A DNA stretch of 42,371 bases from Bacteroidales bacterium (GTDB lineage Bacteria; Bacteroidota; Bacteroidia; Bacteroidales; UBA932), in the NCBI GenBank assembly GCA_017477245.1, contig JAFUWY010000010.1, forward strand, positions 1-42,371. The letters run 5' to 3'. A program made the translations under genes and the position numbers. Position 1 is the first letter of the stretch; the number at the start of each line of letters is the position of its first letter. Below the pieces are notes generated by a model. The model worked only from the letters and a program-made list of their open reading frames with translations. It searched no databases and was not told where the DNA came from. This document shows positions 10,199 to 41,407 of the stretch, piece by piece.

Positions 10199-11473
10199 AT
10201 GATAAATCGAAATCTCATCCTCACCGCCCTGCTGGCGCTCTGCGCCGTGGCAGGTTTTGCGCAGCCGCACCGCTCTGAGGCGGCGGTGCGCGCCCTGCTC
10301 GCCGAGCCCTCGCGCGCCGGCAACAATACCAACTCCTATGAGTTCCATCCCATCCAGGATACCCGTCCGCCGAGAGGATACAAGCCCTTCTACATCAGCC
10401 ACTACGGCCGCCATGGGTCGCGCTCCAACTGGGGCGGGACGGCCTATGAGAACGTCATCCGCACCCTGGAGGCCGCGCAGGCCGACGGGCAGCTGACGCC
10501 GGGCGGCGACTCGCTGCTCGTCGCAGCGCGCCGCGTGCTGGCCGGCTGGGACGGCATGGACGGCCGCCTGTCGCAGCGCGGCGTGCGCGAGCACGGCATC
10601 ATCGCGGAGCGCATGTACCGGCGCTACCCGCAGGTGTTCCGGGGCGAGAAGCGCATCCGGTCCGTGTCCAGCACGGTGCAGCGCTGCATCATCAGCATGA
10701 ATGCTTTCACGAATTCCCTGGTCCGGATGAATCCCAAGCTCCGCTTCCACCTGGACACCGGCGAGAAATTCATGTCCTATCTCGACAACACCAGCGGCTG
10801 GCAGCGGATCACCGCGGCGGCCGGTCCCAAGACGCGCGCGTACATCGGCGCGATGCCGGACGACACACTCGGCATCCTGCCCCGCGTGTTCCGGGATCCA
10901 CAGGCGGCGCGCAAGTATGTGCAGAGCCCCCGCCGTTTCACGGATGATGTGTGGAATACGGCCATCATCGCCGAGGACTTCGACATCGAGGACGACCTCT
11001 TCCGTTTCCTGCCGTTCGATGCGCTCTACCGTCGCTGGGCGCAGAGCAACATCGGCCTCTATACCGGCCACTGCAACTCCGTCGAGGCCGGCGCCGAGCG
11101 GGTCCCGATGGCCCGTACGGCCGTGGAGGACATCGTGGCCAAGGCCGACGAGGCCATCGCCACGGGTGAATACGCCGCCGACCTGCGTTTCGGCCACGAC
11201 TTCCCGCTGATGGCCCTCGCCAGCTACCTCGGTATCGAGGGGGTTGGCGAGCGCTACAGCGTCGAAGAGGTCTGCGACAACTGGCTGGGATTCTGGAACA
11301 TCCCGATGGCCAGCAACCTCCAGCTCATCTTCTACCGCAATGGCGCGGGCCATGTCCTCGTGAAGTTCCTCTACCAGGAGCAGGAGCGCAAGTTGCGCGG
11401 GCTCGAGCCCGTCGAGGGCCCCTACTACGACTGGGAGACGGTCAAGGCCAACCTGGAGGGCTACAAGCGGTGA
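10199..11473 (+). CDS. Secreted histidine acid phosphatase (Minpp/phytase-like)
   Basis: 424 residues with a signal peptide (MINRNLILTALLALCAVAGFAQ). The histidine phosphatase catalytic motif is HYGRHGSRSNW (residues ~67-77), where the His of RHG forms the phosphohistidine; the partner His-Asp pair is FGHDF near residue 332. The family includes multiple inositol polyphosphate phosphatases secreted by gut Bacteroides to take phosphate from phytate. Assignment to that subgroup is inference from the RHGSR form and the secreted location. The stop overlaps the GTG of the glycosyltransferase (GTGA), so the two are translationally coupled, although the functions are not obviously related. Confidence 0.85.
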   Translation: MINRNLILTALLALCAVAGFAQPHRSEAAVRALLAEPSRAGNNTNSYEFHPIQDTRPPRGYKPFYISHYGRHGSRSNWGGTAYENVIRTLEAAQADGQLTPGGDSLLVAARRVLAGWDGMDGRLSQRGVREHGIIAERMYRRYPQVFRGEKRIRSVSSTVQRCIISMNAFTNSLVRMNPKLRFHLDTGEKFMSYLDNTSGWQRITAAAGPKTRAYIGAMPDDTLGILPRVFRDPQAARKYVQSPRRFTDDVWNTAIIAEDFDIEDDLFRFLPFDALYRRWAQSNIGLYTGHCNSVEAGAERVPMARTAVEDIVAKADEAIATGEYAADLRFGHDFPLMALASYLGIEGVGERYSVEEVCDNWLGFWNIPMASNLQLIFYRNGAGHVLVKFLYQEQERKLRGLEPVEGPYYDWETVKANLEGYKR

Positions 11474-12792
11474 AGCGCCTGCTGATCATTACGTATTATT
11501 GGCCCCCGACCGGCGGTTCGGGGGTCCAGCGCTGGGTGAAATTCAGCAAATACCTGCCGGAGCACGGCTGGCAGCCGGTCATCTATACCCCGGAGAATCC
11601 GGAGCAGCTGGCGCGGGACGAGAGCCTGCTCTCGGACGTCCCCGCCTGCGCCGAGGTGATCAAGACCCGCATCCTGGAGCCGTACGCCGTCTACCGGAGG
11701 CTGACCGGGGGCAAGCAGGGGGAGGAAGTCAATCCCGTCAACGCGCAGAAGAAGAACTGGAAGCAGCGCCTCTCCCTCTGGATCCGGGGCAACTGCTTCA
11801 TCCCCGATCCCCGGATCGGCTGGGTGCGCCCCTCGGTCCGTTTCCTGAAGAAATACCTGCACGAGCACCCCGTGGACGCCGTCGTGACCACAGGCCCGCC
11901 CCATTCGGTCCACCTCATCGGGCGCGGCCTCAAGCGCGCGCTGGGCGTGCATTGGATCGCGGATTTCCGCGATCCGTGGACGGAGATGTTCTACTACAAG
12001 CACCTCGGGCTGACCGCCGCGTCGGACCGCCGGCAGCACCGTCTGGAGCAGACCGTGCTCGACGAGGCGGATACCGTGATCAGCGTCACCCCGCTGGTGC
12101 AGAAGGATTTCCAGGCCAGGACCAAGACTCCGGTCGTTCTGATTACCAATGGCTTTGACGAGGATGATTTCGTCGGGAGCGGCAGTGCCCCCGCGGAGCC
12201 GTTCACCCGGACAGGGTCGGGCGCCAGCGAAGCGCAGTCCGATAGCGGAGCGGGGGCAGCTGCCGTCCCGACGTACCGGCTCGTGCATACCGGGCTGTTC
12301 GCCGCTGATGGGAATCCCTTGAATCTCTGGGACGCCCTCGCGCGGCGCTGCGGGGAAGACCCTTCCTTCCGCGCGCGGCTGGAGATCCGGCTCGCCGGCA
12401 AGGTGGACCGCGCCATCACGGACGCCATCCGTGCCCGCGGCCTCGGCGGCAACCTCGTCGAGCTGGGCTACCTGCCCCATGACGAGACGGTCCGCGAGCA
12501 GCGCGCCGCGGACATCCTCCTGCTGCCCCTGCGCCAGGAGCCGGAGTACGCCAAGGTGCTGCCCGGCAAGATCTTCGAGTATCTCGCCGCCCGCCGGCCC
12601 GTCCTGGGCATCGGCCAGGAGGACGGGGCCGCCGCCGCGGTCCTGCGCGACGCCGGGGCGGGGGAGATGTTCGACTGGGACAAGACCGATGAACTGCTGG
12701 CCTTCCTGGATGCCCCGCATCCGGAGACGACCGGCATCGAAAAATACACCCGCCGCGCCCTGACGGCGCAGCTGACACAGATTCTGCCATGA
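11470..12792 (+). CDS. Glycosyltransferase family 4-like, with palindromic insert
   Basis: 440 residues, GTG start overlapping the phosphatase stop (GTGA). The N-terminal Rossmann domain opens LLIITYYWPPTGGSGVQRW, typical of GT4 enzymes of capsule, O-antigen or exopolysaccharide synthesis. The C-terminal donor-binding domain has RLVHTGLF, ADILLLPLRQEPEY, PGKIFEYLAARRPVLGIG and the acidic EX7E-like end of the loop. Between the domains, residues ~236-268 (GSGSAPAEPFTRTGSG and on) are a 97-nt palindromic insert in frame; family members usually pass directly from NGFDEDDF to the YRLVHTG strand. The insert lies in a linker and probably does not abolish activity. The next gene overlaps by ATGA. Acceptor and donor sugars cannot be told from sequence. 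Confidence 0.88.
   Translation: MKRLLIITYYWPPTGGSGVQRWVKFSKYLPEHGWQPVIYTPENPEQLARDESLLSDVPACAEVIKTRILEPYAVYRRLTGGKQGEEVNPVNAQKKNWKQRLSLWIRGNCFIPDPRIGWVRPSVRFLKKYLHEHPVDAVVTTGPPHSVHLIGRGLKRALGVHWIADFRDPWTEMFYYKHLGLTAASDRRQHRLEQTVLDEADTVISVTPLVQKDFQARTKTPVVLITNGFDEDDFVGSGSAPAEPFTRTGSGASEAQSDSGAGAAAVPTYRLVHTGLFAADGNPLNLWDALARRCGEDPSFRARLEIRLAGKVDRAITDAIRARGLGGNLVELGYLPHDETVREQRAADILLLPLRQEPEYAKVLPGKIFEYLAARRPVLGIGQEDGAAAAVLRDAGAGEMFDWDKTDELLAFLDAPHPETTGIEKYTRRALTAQLTQILP
12174..12270 (+). repeat. In-frame palindromic insert in glycosyltransferase (family 3 relative)
   Basis: Outer arms cggga...ggcag-tgcccccgc (12174-) and gcgggggcagctgcc-tcccg (-12270) are imperfect inverted repeats. The inner part agcgaagcgcagtccg-atagcgga (12226-12249) matches the elements in dapF (agcgaagcgaagtccg-catcagcgga). 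Confidence 0.7.
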
Positions 12793-26067: not shown

Positions 26068-26138
26068 CGGCCGATGATTGAGGGGCGCCCCTCAAACTCC
26101 TCCGGCCGCGTCGCTCCGAGTAAATCACCCTATAACAA

Positions 26139-26225
26139 TGCAGTCGGGGGTCCAGCATTTGGACCCCCGACTGCATTTTGGGGATTTTTTGCTGTTAGGG
26201 GTCCAGCACGTGGACCCCTAACAGC
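26139..26225 (+). repeat. Bipartite REP-like element, copy B
   Basis: Palindrome 1: perfect 16-bp arms 26139-26154 (tgcagtcgggggtcca) and 26160-26175. The spacer between the palindromes is gcattttggggattttttgc, sharing GC/GCA ends with the arms. Palindrome 2: perfect 15-bp arms 26191-26205 (gctgttaggggtcca) and 26211-26225. It lies between the convergent EF-G2 and S51/ATP-grasp genes and probably also works as a terminator. Confidence 0.93.
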
Positions 26226-26250
26226 AGTAATTATGAAAAACGGACAGTTT

Positions 26251-29151: not shown

Positions 29152-29238
29152 GCTGTTAGGGGTACTTGAATCGGACCCCGAACGGCATTATGATGCTTTT
29201 TTGCTGTCGGGGGTCCAAGCCCTGGACCCCCGACAGCA
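29152..29238 (+). repeat. Bipartite REP-like element, copy C, beside the RAYT gene
   Basis: Palindrome 1 (29152-) is degenerate (gctgttaggggt ... accccgaacggc). The 20-nt spacer is gcattatgatgcttttttgc. Palindrome 2 has perfect 16-bp arms, 29202-29217 (tgctgtcgggggtcca) and 29223-29238, loop agccc. Same length and order as copy B. From 29239 to 29380 I see no gene. Confidence 0.92.
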
Positions 29239-38245: not shown

Positions 38246-39009
38246 CGATAGAGAAATTCAACGAAGTGATGGCGGCCCTGGAGGCCGGCACCCTGCGCGT
38301 CGCCGAGAAGGTGGACGGCATGTGGCAGGTCAACAAATGGGTCAAGGAAGTGATCCTCGCGGGCTTCAAGCTCGGCGCGGTCACGGACATGTCCCAGGGG
38401 CAGTTCTCCTTCTTCGACAAGGCCACGTTCCCCGTGCGGAAGTTCTCCGCCGAGGACGGCGTGCGCATCGTGCCGGGCGGGTCGAGCATCCGCCGCGGCG
38501 CCTATGTCGCACCCGGCGCCATCGTGATGCCGCCGGCTTATATCAATGTCGGCGCCTACGTGGGCGAGGGCACGATGGTGGACAGCCACGTGACCATCGG
38601 CTCCTGCGCACAGGTGGGCCGGCACATCCACATTTCCGCGTCGACCCAGATCGGCGGCGTGCTGGAGCCTGCGGGCGCCCTGCCGACCATCATCGAGGAC
38701 GGTGCCTTCGTGGGCGGCAACTGCGGCATCTACGAGGGGACCATCGTGCAGGAGGGCGCCGTGATCGCCTCCGGCGTGGTCATCACCTCGTCCACGGCCC
38801 TGTTCGACGCCACGACGGGCGAGTTCCTGCCGCGCAACGAGGCCGGCCGCGTGGTCGTGCCGAAGGGCGCCGTGGTCGTGAGCGGCAGCAAGCCGCTGCG
38901 GCGCGGCCCTGCCGCCGGCAGCGGCGTCGCGCTCTACTGCCCGGTCATCGTCAAGTACCGCGACGAGAAGACGGCCGGGTCCGTGACCCTCGAAGACCTG
39001 CTGCGCTGA
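38236..39009 (+). CDS. dapD: Tetrahydrodipicolinate N-succinyltransferase DapD
   Basis: 257 residues from the ATG at 38236, which overlaps the dapA stop by 10 bases; the frame is open further upstream but inside dapA. Left-handed beta-helix of hexapeptide repeats (for example GVRIVPGGSSIRRGAYVAPG, INVGAYVGEGTMVDSHVTIG, GGVLEPAGALPTIIEDGAFV, GGNCGIYEGTIVQEGAVI). Transfers succinyl from succinyl-CoA to tetrahydrodipicolinate, committing the pathway to the succinylase branch. The N-terminal helical domain is ~15-20 residues shorter than usual. The stop shares one base with the dapF start. Confidence 0.94.
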   Translation: MEVTIEKFNEVMAALEAGTLRVAEKVDGMWQVNKWVKEVILAGFKLGAVTDMSQGQFSFFDKATFPVRKFSAEDGVRIVPGGSSIRRGAYVAPGAIVMPPAYINVGAYVGEGTMVDSHVTIGSCAQVGRHIHISASTQIGGVLEPAGALPTIIEDGAFVGGNCGIYEGTIVQEGAVIASGVVITSSTALFDATTGEFLPRNEAGRVVVPKGAVVVSGSKPLRRGPAAGSGVALYCPVIVKYRDEKTAGSVTLEDLLR

Positions 39010-40037
39010 TGCCGAAGCTCTATAAATATTCCGGCGCCGGCAACGATTTCGTGGTCTTGGACGGCCGTACGGAGGACGTCTCCGCTTTCCGCTCCCCGGA
39101 GCGGATCGCCGCGCTTTGCGACCGCCGTACCGGCTTCGTCGCCGGAGACTGCCTGGAGCGAAACGAAGTCCGCATCAGCGGACCGGCCGGCCCCGGGACT
39201 TTGGCCCCCTTGAGAAGAGGCGCCGACGGCCTGATGATCCTGACGGACGACCCGGAGTACGATTTCCGGATGGAATACTACAATTCCGACGGCTCCGGCG
39301 GGATGATGTGCGGCAACGGCGGACGCTGCATCACGGCGTTTGCGGACGCCCTGGGGATCACCCCGGCGGACGGCCGCGTGTTCCGCTTCACGGCTGCCGA
39401 CGGCGTCCACACCGGCGAGATCCTCGCGCGGGCGGACGGCGTCAAGACGGTGCGCCTGCGGATGATCGACGTGCGCGAATTCCACCCGGCCCTGGACGGC
39501 TGGTTCGTGGACACGGGCACGCGCCACTTCGTGCGTTTCGTGCCTGACGCGGAGACCGTCGACGTGGATGGAGAGGGCCGTCGGGCCCGCTGGGACCCGG
39601 CTTTCGCGCCCGTCGGCGCCAACGCCAACTTCGTGTCGGTCGACCCTGACGGGACGCTCCGCGTGCGCACCTTCGAGAAGGGCGTCGAGGCGGAGACCCT
39701 GGCCTGCGGCACGGGGATTACCGCGAGTGCGATTGCTGCCTATCTGGCCGGTATCGTTCCGGAGGGCTTGCCGGGGATTGGTTGCGCGCAGGCCTTTGAG
39801 CGAAGCGAAGTCCGCATCAGCGGACCGGCCGGCCCCGGGACTTTGGCGGAGACAAAGTCGGAAAGGGGCTTGAGGCCGCAGGGGGTCACAGGGGGCGGAA
39901 CCCCCTTCATCTATAAGATCCAGGCGCGGATCGCACGGCTGTCGGTGGAGTTCCGGGCTTTGCCGGACGGCAGCGGCTTCACGGAGGTCTATCTGACCGG
40001 CCCGGCGGAGGAATGCGTGTTTGGTAAGGCGCTGTGA
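39009..40037 (+). CDS. dapF: Diaminopimelate epimerase DapF with two in-frame palindromic inserts
   Basis: 342 residues against ~275 in the family. It converts LL- to meso-diaminopimelate without a cofactor. Active-site cysteines are present: Cys101 in NSDGSGGMMCGNGGR and Cys233 in LACGTGITAS. The excess length is two inserts. The first splits the conserved CDRR-GIGADGL region (residues ~46-70, with ERNEVRISGPAGPGTLA at 50-66). The second follows the second cysteine's helix (residues ~255-305, with ERSEVRISGPAGPGTLA at 264-280). Both copies are the same 50-nt element in the same frame. The first lies near the substrate pocket, so reduced activity is possible; meso-DAP is essential, so the enzyme presumably still works. 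Confidence 0.95.
   Translation: MPKLYKYSGAGNDFVVLDGRTEDVSAFRSPERIAALCDRRTGFVAGDCLERNEVRISGPAGPGTLAPLRRGADGLMILTDDPEYDFRMEYYNSDGSGGMMCGNGGRCITAFADALGITPADGRVFRFTAADGVHTGEILARADGVKTVRLRMIDVREFHPALDGWFVDTGTRHFVRFVPDAETVDVDGEGRRARWDPAFAPVGANANFVSVDPDGTLRVRTFEKGVEAETLACGTGITASAIAAYLAGIVPEGLPGIGCAQAFERSEVRISGPAGPGTLAETKSERGLRPQGVTGGGTPFIYKIQARIARLSVEFRALPDGSGFTEVYLTGPAEECVFGKAL
39156..39205 (+). repeat. In-frame palindromic element, family 3, dapF copy 1
   Basis: 50 nt. Inner hairpin gtccgc-atca-gcggac, then ccggccggcc, and outer arms aagtcc / gggactt. Starts on a codon boundary. 49 of 50 bases match the copy at 39798. Confidence 0.93.
39798..39847 (+). repeat. In-frame palindromic element, family 3, dapF copy 2
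   Basis: 50 nt, one base different from copy 1, same orientation and reading frame, 642 bases (214 codons) downstream. Followed by another small hairpin, gggggcggaaccccc, at about 39892-39906. Confidence 0.93.
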
Positions 40038-40135: not shown

Positions 40136-41407
40136 ATGGATTATAGCAAATTCTTTTCGGAGGACGTCGGGTCGTTCATGCGCTCGCCGGTGCGCGAGAT
40201 CTTCAAGAAGGTGGACCTCGCGTCCATCTATTCCTTCGCCGGCGGCTATCCTGACGCGGCGACCTTCCCGCTGGACGACATCCGCCGCATCAGCGCGCAG
40301 GTGCTCGACCGCTACGGGGCCAAGGCGCTCCAGTACGGCGCCACGCAGGGCGTGCCGGAGCTGCGGGAGGTGATCGCCCGGCGCTACGGCGTGGCGGTGG
40401 AGAACGTCCAGGTCACGACCTCCTCGCAGCAGGGGATCGACGTCTGCACGCGCGTGTTCGCCAATCCCGGCGACGTGATTCTGACCACGAGCCCGACCTA
40501 CCTCGGCGCCCTGCAGTCCTTCAAGTCCTATCGCGCCGATGTCCGGACGCTGGAAGAATTCGGTTTTTCCCTCGGCAGCCGGAGCCGCTTGCCCCGGGAC
40601 AACTTCGCGCTTCGCGCTCATCCCTCCCAAGCTGACGCTTGGGCCCCTCCCGTTTACGAGGCCACGGGTGGCCACGGTTGCCCGGAGCAAGCGGCTCCGG
40701 CTGCCGACATCCCGGTGAAGTTCTGCTACGTGATTCCGGATTTCCAGAATCCGAGCGGGGAGACGATGACGCTTCCGGAGCGGGAGGCGCTGGTCGCGCT
40801 GGCGCGCGAACACGACTTCCTCATCGTCGAGGACAGCCCGTACCGCGAGCTGCGCTACAGCGGCGAGCCTGTGCCGACGATTTACTCGCTGGCGCCGGAG
40901 CGGACCCTGCACCTGGGGAGCTTCTCCAAGATCTTCGCCCCGGGATTCCGGCTGGGCTGGATTCTCGGCCCGACCGAACTGCTGGACCAGATCTATGTCT
41001 GCAAGCAGTCGCTCGACCTCTGCCCGCCCATCTTCGACCAGTACATCGCCGCGGAGTTCATGGGCAGCGGCGCGCTCGACGCCAACCTGGCGAAGAGCAT
41101 CGCCCTGTACCGCGCCAAGCGGGACAAGATGCTCTCCCTGCTGGAGAAATACATGCCCTCGGGCGTGACCTGGACGCATCCGGAGGGCGGACTGTTCCTC
41201 TTCCTGACCCTGCCGGAAGGCTTCGACACCGTGGCCCTCTACGACCGGGCGCTCAGCGCCGGGGTCGCCTATGTGGCGGGTTCCTTCTTCTATGTGGACG
41301 GCAGCCACCGCAACACGATGCGGCTCAACTTCTCCTTCCTGGACGCCTCCCGGATGGAGGCCGGGATCCGGCTGCTGGCGGAGGTGATCCGCGAGGCAGC
41401 GAAGTAG
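40136..41407 (+). CDS. PLP-dependent aminotransferase (class I/II, LysN-like) with 44-residue insert
   Basis: 423 residues. Fold-type I aminotransferase: SFAGGYPDAATFP, TTSSQQGIDVC, SPTYLGALQSF, VIPDFQNPSGETMT, the PLP lysine Lys265 in LHLGSFSKIFAPGFRLGW, and the C-terminal Arg in NTMRLNFSF. The family includes 2-aminoadipate and aromatic aminotransferases. At the end of a dap cluster lacking an identified DapC, it is a candidate N-succinyl-LL-DAP aminotransferase, by context only. Residues 147-190 (GSRSRLPRDNFALRAHPSQA and on) are encoded by a 132-nt inverted-repeat element in frame, between SFKSYRADVRTLEEFGFSL and the DIPVKFCYVIP strand, away from the lysine. Confidence 0.88.
   Translation: MDYSKFFSEDVGSFMRSPVREIFKKVDLASIYSFAGGYPDAATFPLDDIRRISAQVLDRYGAKALQYGATQGVPELREVIARRYGVAVENVQVTTSSQQGIDVCTRVFANPGDVILTTSPTYLGALQSFKSYRADVRTLEEFGFSLGSRSRLPRDNFALRAHPSQADAWAPPVYEATGGHGCPEQAAPAADIPVKFCYVIPDFQNPSGETMTLPEREALVALAREHDFLIVEDSPYRELRYSGEPVPTIYSLAPERTLHLGSFSKIFAPGFRLGWILGPTELLDQIYVCKQSLDLCPPIFDQYIAAEFMGSGALDANLAKSIALYRAKRDKMLSLLEKYMPSGVTWTHPEGGLFLFLTLPEGFDTVALYDRALSAGVAYVAGSFFYVDGSHRNTMRLNFSFLDASRMEAGIRLLAEVIREAAK
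40574..40705 (+). repeat. 132-nt in-frame inverted-repeat element in aminotransferase
   Basis: Outer arms 40574-40598 and 40681-40705 pair at 24 of 25 positions (left arm begins ggcagccggagccgcttg). Inside are two smaller hairpins, ccaagc-tgac-gcttgg and ggccac-gg-gtggcc. Exactly 44 codons, starting on a codon boundary. Its gagcgcgaagcgcgaagt motif (minus strand) resembles family 3. Confidence 0.93.

Follow-up and report, generated by a model that had tools for sequence, protein, structure and literature searches.

The best-known cases of selfish DNA lying in frame within essential genes come from Rickettsia, and its movement is, as far as we know, unsolved. The Rickettsia palindromic elements (RPE), reported also from Wolbachia, are described as dispersed repeats of 100 to 150 bp that sit in frame in unrelated housekeeping genes and leave the frame intact, and different families may be found close together at one gene site (excerpts of PMC10969869 and PMC3767692); an RPE open reading frame (ORF) with a conserved peptide is also described (PMC10969869, excerpt). 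Insertions of REP sequences in genes are known as well, as are atypical structures near the TnpA_REP genes of Bacteroidetes, subclass 2.6 (excerpts of PMC6006769 and PMC3733652). Open-access literature searched for Bacteroidales palindromic coding-sequence repeats and for Cryptobacteroides repeats or mobile elements yielded nothing on the element described here, and the excerpted text of PMC5771137 does not describe it.

Two copies of a structured element in dapF

The window, that is, the whole 42,371-nt stretch of contig JAFUWY010000010.1 analysed here (Bacteroidales bacterium, GCA_017477245.1), contains a diaminopimelate epimerase gene, dapF, in which a preliminary description had seen the same 50-nt palindrome twice. 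The repeat pair is borne out: the stretches 39156-39205 and 39798-39847 lie on one strand and agree at 49 of their 50 bases, and both copies start at a codon boundary of the dapF ORF, in the same frame, reading ERNEVRISGPAGPGTLA and ERSEVRISGPAGPGTLA. Copy 1 plus 20 nt of surrounding sequence, searched against the genome to which the window belongs (2.38 Mb, 48 contigs), returned copy 2 at E 1.2e-18 and three more places, which excludes a chance origin of the repeat. The picture needs two refinements: the unit is longer than 50 nt, with copy 2 extending to 39908, and it is a chain of hairpins rather than one simple palindrome. Comparison of loci from the window's genome and its relatives identifies the 50-mer as the 5' half of a conserved element of about 110 nt. 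Eleven copies were aligned and their structure was written by hand, and the model used throughout, R1, was built from them. The features of the locus are as follows.

39009..40037, + strand: dapF, encoding a diaminopimelate epimerase of 342 aa, in which both copies lie (translation; Pfam PF01678, E 2.1e-28; PDB DapF chains, best E 1.7e-22)
39154..39213, + strand: insert 1, an element copy of about 60 nt (20 codons) by DNA and protein alignments, internally deleted according to the R1 alignment, with ends uncertain by a few nt
39798..39908, + strand: insert 2, a full-length element copy (R1 match of 122.7 bits, E 6.7e-33; one of the 11 copies from which R1 was built)
39798..39809, + strand: optional 5' prefix, GAGCGAAGCGAA, found in part of the copies only
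39810..39825, + strand: helix P1, GTCCGC-ATCA-GCGGAC, supported by covariation
39826..39878, + strand: nested helices P2 (39826-39830 with 39874-39878), P3 (39833-39836 with 39865-39868) and P4 (39839-39845 with 39853-39859), supported by covariation
39890..39906, + strand: terminal hairpin P5, AGGGGG-cggaa-CCCCCT, supported by stem variants among copies and not part of the model; in other copies it marks the end turned towards stable RNA genes

Both cysteine motifs of the DapF product (MMCGN and LACGTG) are intact. A dapF match is present in 61 of the 81 genus genomes searched, and orthologues were compared at both insertion sites, a check that the preliminary description had proposed. Insert 1 (R1 match at 39156-39228, 37.6 bits) is seen only in the window's DapF among 29 aligned DapF proteins, and a DNA alignment with six close orthologues (G008, G137, G105, G058, G025, and G107) shows its approximately 60 nt in none of them. 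In the C-terminal loop of the same 29 proteins, the element occurs in sense orientation only in the window's genome (G000) and in antisense orientation in G008 and G137, with a different sequence in its place in G105 and G058. An AlphaFold model of DapF has a mean pLDDT of 84.3 and a core mostly above 90; segments 51-60 and 258-295, which lie within or overlap the inserts, fall below 50. Low values are in part what one expects of inserts to which no homologues can be aligned.

Other palindromes are present in the window. The preliminary description had placed a related core at 12226, which proves not to be a copy, as R1 run over the whole window with filters off gives no hit above noise apart from the two dapF copies, and the next-best hit (E 0.052) is located elsewhere. 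The supposed core is one of the inner hairpins of a differently shaped palindrome at 12171-12273, with 24-nt arms (75% complementary), which stands in frame between the two domains of a glycosyltransferase ORF (11470-12792). A cloverleaf palindrome with 27-nt arms (96% complementary) lies at 40572-40707, in frame in the aminotransferase ORF that follows dapF (40136-41407). It represents a second repeat family with 17 matches in the window's genome, itself included, and relatives of this family occupy a loop of RsmF in several genomes. Three strong hairpins (26137-26177, 26190-26226, and 29202-29238) have GGGGTCCA...TGGACCCC stems and 5-nt loops and are perhaps a REP-like family or terminators. 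Several structured repeat families appear to inhabit protein loops in this genus.

Fold, distribution, and surroundings of the element

The element folds into five helices, namely, the P1 hairpin, whose loop is mostly ATCA, the nested helices P2, P3, and P4, and, after a G-rich stretch, the hairpin P5. It contains no gene of its own. Full-length R1 matches measure 98 to 127 nt, with one of 143 nt. Among the 11 founding sequences, both sides change at 9 pairs; shuffles give 2.6 and slid controls no more than 2. In 111 aligned R1 matches, which include fragments and several of the founding copies and were fitted to the modelled structure in a way that favours it, 95.6% of cells are paired and both-side changes occur at 20 of the 21 modelled pairs; both-side-changed cells number 427 (115 in shuffles), and the covariation score is 0.493 (0.105 in shuffles, at most 0.050 in slid controls). 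The P5 stem also varies complementarily between copies, though it was left out of the model. The helices are preserved by compensatory change while their letters change.

Pairs in 81 representatives of less than 85% identity comprise 1,583 Watson-Crick, 16 G-T, 4 A-C, and 73 other combinations. G-U/G-T pairs thus make up about 1% of the pairs in the element's helices, a rarity which suggests that the fold may be required as DNA rather than RNA. Neither a search of 8 loci up to E 1 nor one of 40 loci at gathering score gave an Rfam family at the element. Four loci (L102, L105, L027, and L044) have a second P5-like hairpin upstream of P1, resembling truncated tandem copies.

That the dapF repeat belongs to a dispersed family, as had been proposed, is confirmed by further copies in the window's genome (10 R1 matches) and in many genomes of the genus. 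With no more than 25 candidates scored per genome, at least 63 of 151 genus genomes carry the element, with at least 21 matches in the single richest genome, and at the sensitivity of the R1 search none was found in the other 88. When the order was searched with 9 candidates per genome scored, only 2 of 393 genomes matched at E 1e-5, both of this genus (1 of 206 genera). A strict pattern run over 84,980 species genomes returned 32 stretches, all labelled Bacteroidales, Bacteroidia, or Cryptobacteroides and many from named rumen animals, and we infer the host genus to be Candidatus Cryptobacteroides. Two loci of G148 have 116 nt in common at 97.4% identity and little else; in both G148 and G188 the copies have the element unit in common and little beyond. 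Copies in G131, G012, and partly G057 have much longer flanks in common and may therefore spread there within larger repeats. Contig C5 carries three tandem matches with a period of 104, the third of them weak.

For copies inside protein genes, ORFs passing through the element were scanned with Pfam and sites were counted. The count gives 24 intragenic sites, in agreement with the claim of in-frame copies in unrelated housekeeping genes. For the first 22, recognised protein sequence lies on both sides of the element or an alignment spans it: DapF (twice in the window's genome, and in antisense in G008/G137), RsmF, a carbon-nitrogen hydrolase, a Tricorn-like protease, a HemW-like protein, an MFS transporter, KsgA, MiaA (twice, by spanning alignments), an Fe-S protein, a 2-oxoacid dehydrogenase E2 (a single count for three orthologues), a SPASM radical-SAM protein, the ATP synthase gamma subunit (AtpG) of G159, an ABC-F-like protein, an APH/RapZ protein, MiaB-like proteins (twice), UvrA, an M20 peptidase, and a penicillin-binding protein. 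AtpG of G008 completes the count with two decayed copies, of which one is in sense and the other in antisense orientation. Overall, 21 sites are in sense and 3 in antisense orientation (20 versus 2, p 0.0001, for the first 22 alone). In G159, the element and another insert occupy an AtpG loop whose length varies widely across the genus. One other insert, RAAG(N/Y)YFSD(K/R)FAEKPISAP, occurs in loops of two unrelated proteins, DapF (L067 and L068) and AtpG (L101), in G105, G058, and G159.

Two further suggestions of the preliminary description find no support. Intragenic sites are not the rule, with 24 sites from about 125 copies inspected, most of which are intergenic or have no recognised coding frame running through them. 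Nor does the element appear to be peptide-encoding: intragenic copies use at least two sense frames as well as antisense, both strands are about equally open (on average 1.59 of 3 frames in sense and 1.52 in antisense), and what is conserved is the fold. Shuffled letters average 1.17 open frames, and the greater openness of both element strands could point to selection for coding.

The copies show a marked orientation relative to stable RNA genes. We located tRNA and tmRNA genes in the loci, with a repeat by script, and RNase P and SRP genes by Rfam in 40 of the 118 loci. The 3' end of the model lies at most 15 nt (2 to 10 nt) from one of these genes in 25 of 124 copies, compared to 1 of 124 for the 5' (P1) end. 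The RNA gene is faced at its 3' end in 14 of the 25 cases and at its 5' end in 11. The same genes recur across genomes (tmRNA, 4; tRNA-Ala, 4; tRNA-Met, 5), so that some cases represent one RNA gene in several genomes and may have been inherited. In 14 of 108 copies a hairpin scoring at least 8 begins no more than about 18 nt beyond P5, against 25 of 1,296 random positions. The 5' side is also enriched in such hairpins (7 of 104 copies), and the polarity therefore rests mainly on the stable-RNA cases. In folding energy, 60-nt 3' flanks deviate only slightly (mean z, -0.49; p 0.002), and the 5' flank has p 0.72.

Mobility and the weighing of alternatives

Empty sites in relatives were found for dapF, the tRNA-Pro leader, and RsmF, confirming that orthologues lack the element at the same sites. 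In G008 and G159 the element stands between the promoter and the tRNA-Pro gene, whereas in seven genomes read (G000, G137, G120, G058, G105, G148, and G006) the tRNA directly follows promoter-like sequence, the empty site of G006 having other upstream sequence. The RsmF site of G008 is without the element in all nine relatives read. By eye, no target duplication is evident at the three empty sites, whose boundaries are inexact. A 17-bp perfect hairpin directly follows the element in RsmF of G008 (L007, 1616-1653); its 3' arm is the native coding sequence for VLDLC, and its 5' arm is not seen in the nine relatives, a single case that looks as if an inverted copy of the neighbouring target had been made.

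Judging from the empty sites, from the two G148 loci that have 116 nt and little else in common, and from the tandem matches, the element looks mobile. Some copies keep the frame of essential genes intact and others lie beside tRNA-like genes, and for this reason the element looks like a mobile parasite. We consider it probable, with some reserve, that the element, about 100 to 125 nt long and specific to the genus, is non-autonomous selfish DNA and spreads in the form of a folded single strand. Its mobilising enzyme would act in trans and would recognise the fold, perhaps as single-stranded DNA. Insertion would prefer sites adjoining self-folding sequence (tRNA, tmRNA, RNase P RNA, SRP RNA, and coding hairpins), with the P5 end facing the adjoining fold. 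Copies that enter genes would survive only if they comprise whole codons, carry no stop, and fall in a tolerant loop, and the survivors would then be translated as disordered loops. A more far-reaching proposal, possible though in our estimate doubtful, is that a new class of structured mobile elements in this one genus inserts P5 first beside folded nucleic acid (stable RNA genes and coding hairpins), sometimes copies the adjacent target in inverted form, and, along with one or more further structured repeat families, keeps extending the surface loops of essential proteins.

The element could alternatively be an atypical REP-like sequence mobilised by one of the genus's own Y1 (RAYT/TnpA_REP) transposases, as for the Bacteroidetes enzymes of subclass 2.6, which have atypical flanking structures. 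Y1 genes are common, occurring in 110 of 151 genus genomes with four matches in the window's own, and excerpts of PMC6006769 and PMC3733652 describe both intragenic REPs and atypical structures near Bacteroidetes TnpA_REP genes. We nevertheless regard this explanation as unlikely. Y1 genes are present in 49 of 63 genomes with the element and in 61 of 88 without it, which is no significant association (p 0.27), and G012 combines 21 element matches with no Y1 gene. The element was not found at 26 of 29 Y1 loci; at the other three, which had been chosen for nearness, it lies 1.7 to 4.3 kb away. Neither co-occurrence by genome nor proximity thus supports a Y1 transposase as the partner. The single Y1 gene whose flanks were read, a 287-aa Y1-type transposase-like gene (L187, 1597-2460; G000:C22), has GC-rich hairpins of its own nearby, unlike the element. 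The REP foot tag, GT[AG]G (GTAG/GTGG) or CGTC, is present near no single hairpin foot in more than 2 of 99 copies, and a 12-nt end match of at least 10, as expected of terminal inverted repeats, in 1 of 99. IS200/IS605-derived elements have fixed cleavage motifs such as TTAC on the left and TCAA on the right; near the element ends, TTAC is found in 0, TTAA in 12, and TCAA in 18 of 99 copies.

Strong structural conservation and the recurrence of the same RNA genes among the 25 adjoining cases are also what one would see of a structured RNA with a function in the host, or of a host processing signal, inherited in part vertically beside stable RNA genes, with the intragenic copies as rare escapes. 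Such a function appears improbable given that the search, at its sensitivity, detected no element in 88 of 151 genus genomes, that the tRNA-Pro leader lacks it in relatives, and that tandem matches, in-frame copies in many genes, and rare G-U pairs would have to be accommodated. A conserved multi-helix fold inside essential genes might alternatively mean that the element is removed from the mRNA by splicing or skipped by ribosomes, leaving host proteins without the insert. The frame stays open through the intragenic copies, which makes this very improbable, although that evidence is biased because intragenic candidates were found as open frames. A search for gene breaks by open frames gave 10 flank pairs at 9 loci, and in the five pairs taken to Pfam no gene is split by the element: the two sides belong to different families at L030 (minus), L100, and L157, one side only has a family at L134, and neither side has one at L030 (plus). 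An assembly artefact of metagenome bins comes to mind, since repeats break contigs and the named records from the 32-stretch pattern search are all metagenome bins or uncultured. We find this scarcely credible, as the same insert occurs in separately assembled genomes (dapF in G008 and G137; the E2 gene in G049, G042, and G112), with intact frames and covariation.

A selfish element of this kind in a large gut and rumen genus with many sequenced species, a measurable fold, empty sites, and a sharp RNA-gene rule would make mobility, targeting, and protein tolerance testable. The loops of DapF, AtpG, MiaA, MiaB, and UvrA, which accept approximately 20 to 40 extra residues per copy, represent natural repeated insertion experiments.

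Comparison with described systems

Group IIC introns and integron attC sites use folded DNA as target or substrate. The likeness to the element is in targeting only, as the element has neither a gene nor a recognisable core of either system. Like miniature inverted-repeat elements (MITEs), it is short, non-coding, multi-copy, and presumably mobilised in trans; it differs from them in having no terminal inverted repeats, and no target duplication was recognised at the empty sites read. With REP/REPIN sequences and their TnpA_REP (RAYT) enzymes it has in common hairpin repeats that are sometimes intragenic (excerpts of PMC3733652 and PMC6006769), but it is longer, has no GT[AG]G/CGTC foot tag, and was not found around most of the Y1 genes.

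The closest likeness, and the one proposed in the preliminary description, is to RPE, with which the element was compared by description rather than by sequence. The differences are that its host, of the Bacteroidales, belongs to another phylum, that it has a five-helix fold with measured covariation, that it has no conserved peptide, and that its 3' end lies beside stable RNA genes. No peptide is conserved among the copies, and neither a REP tag nor terminal inverted repeats nor a partner transposase was found. The element is not shown to be an RPE, but it works like one, and like intragenic REPs: it agrees with RPE in the nearness of different families at one site of a gene, in size, as a repeat of about 100 to 150 bp, in its dispersal, and in its in-frame positions in unrelated genes.
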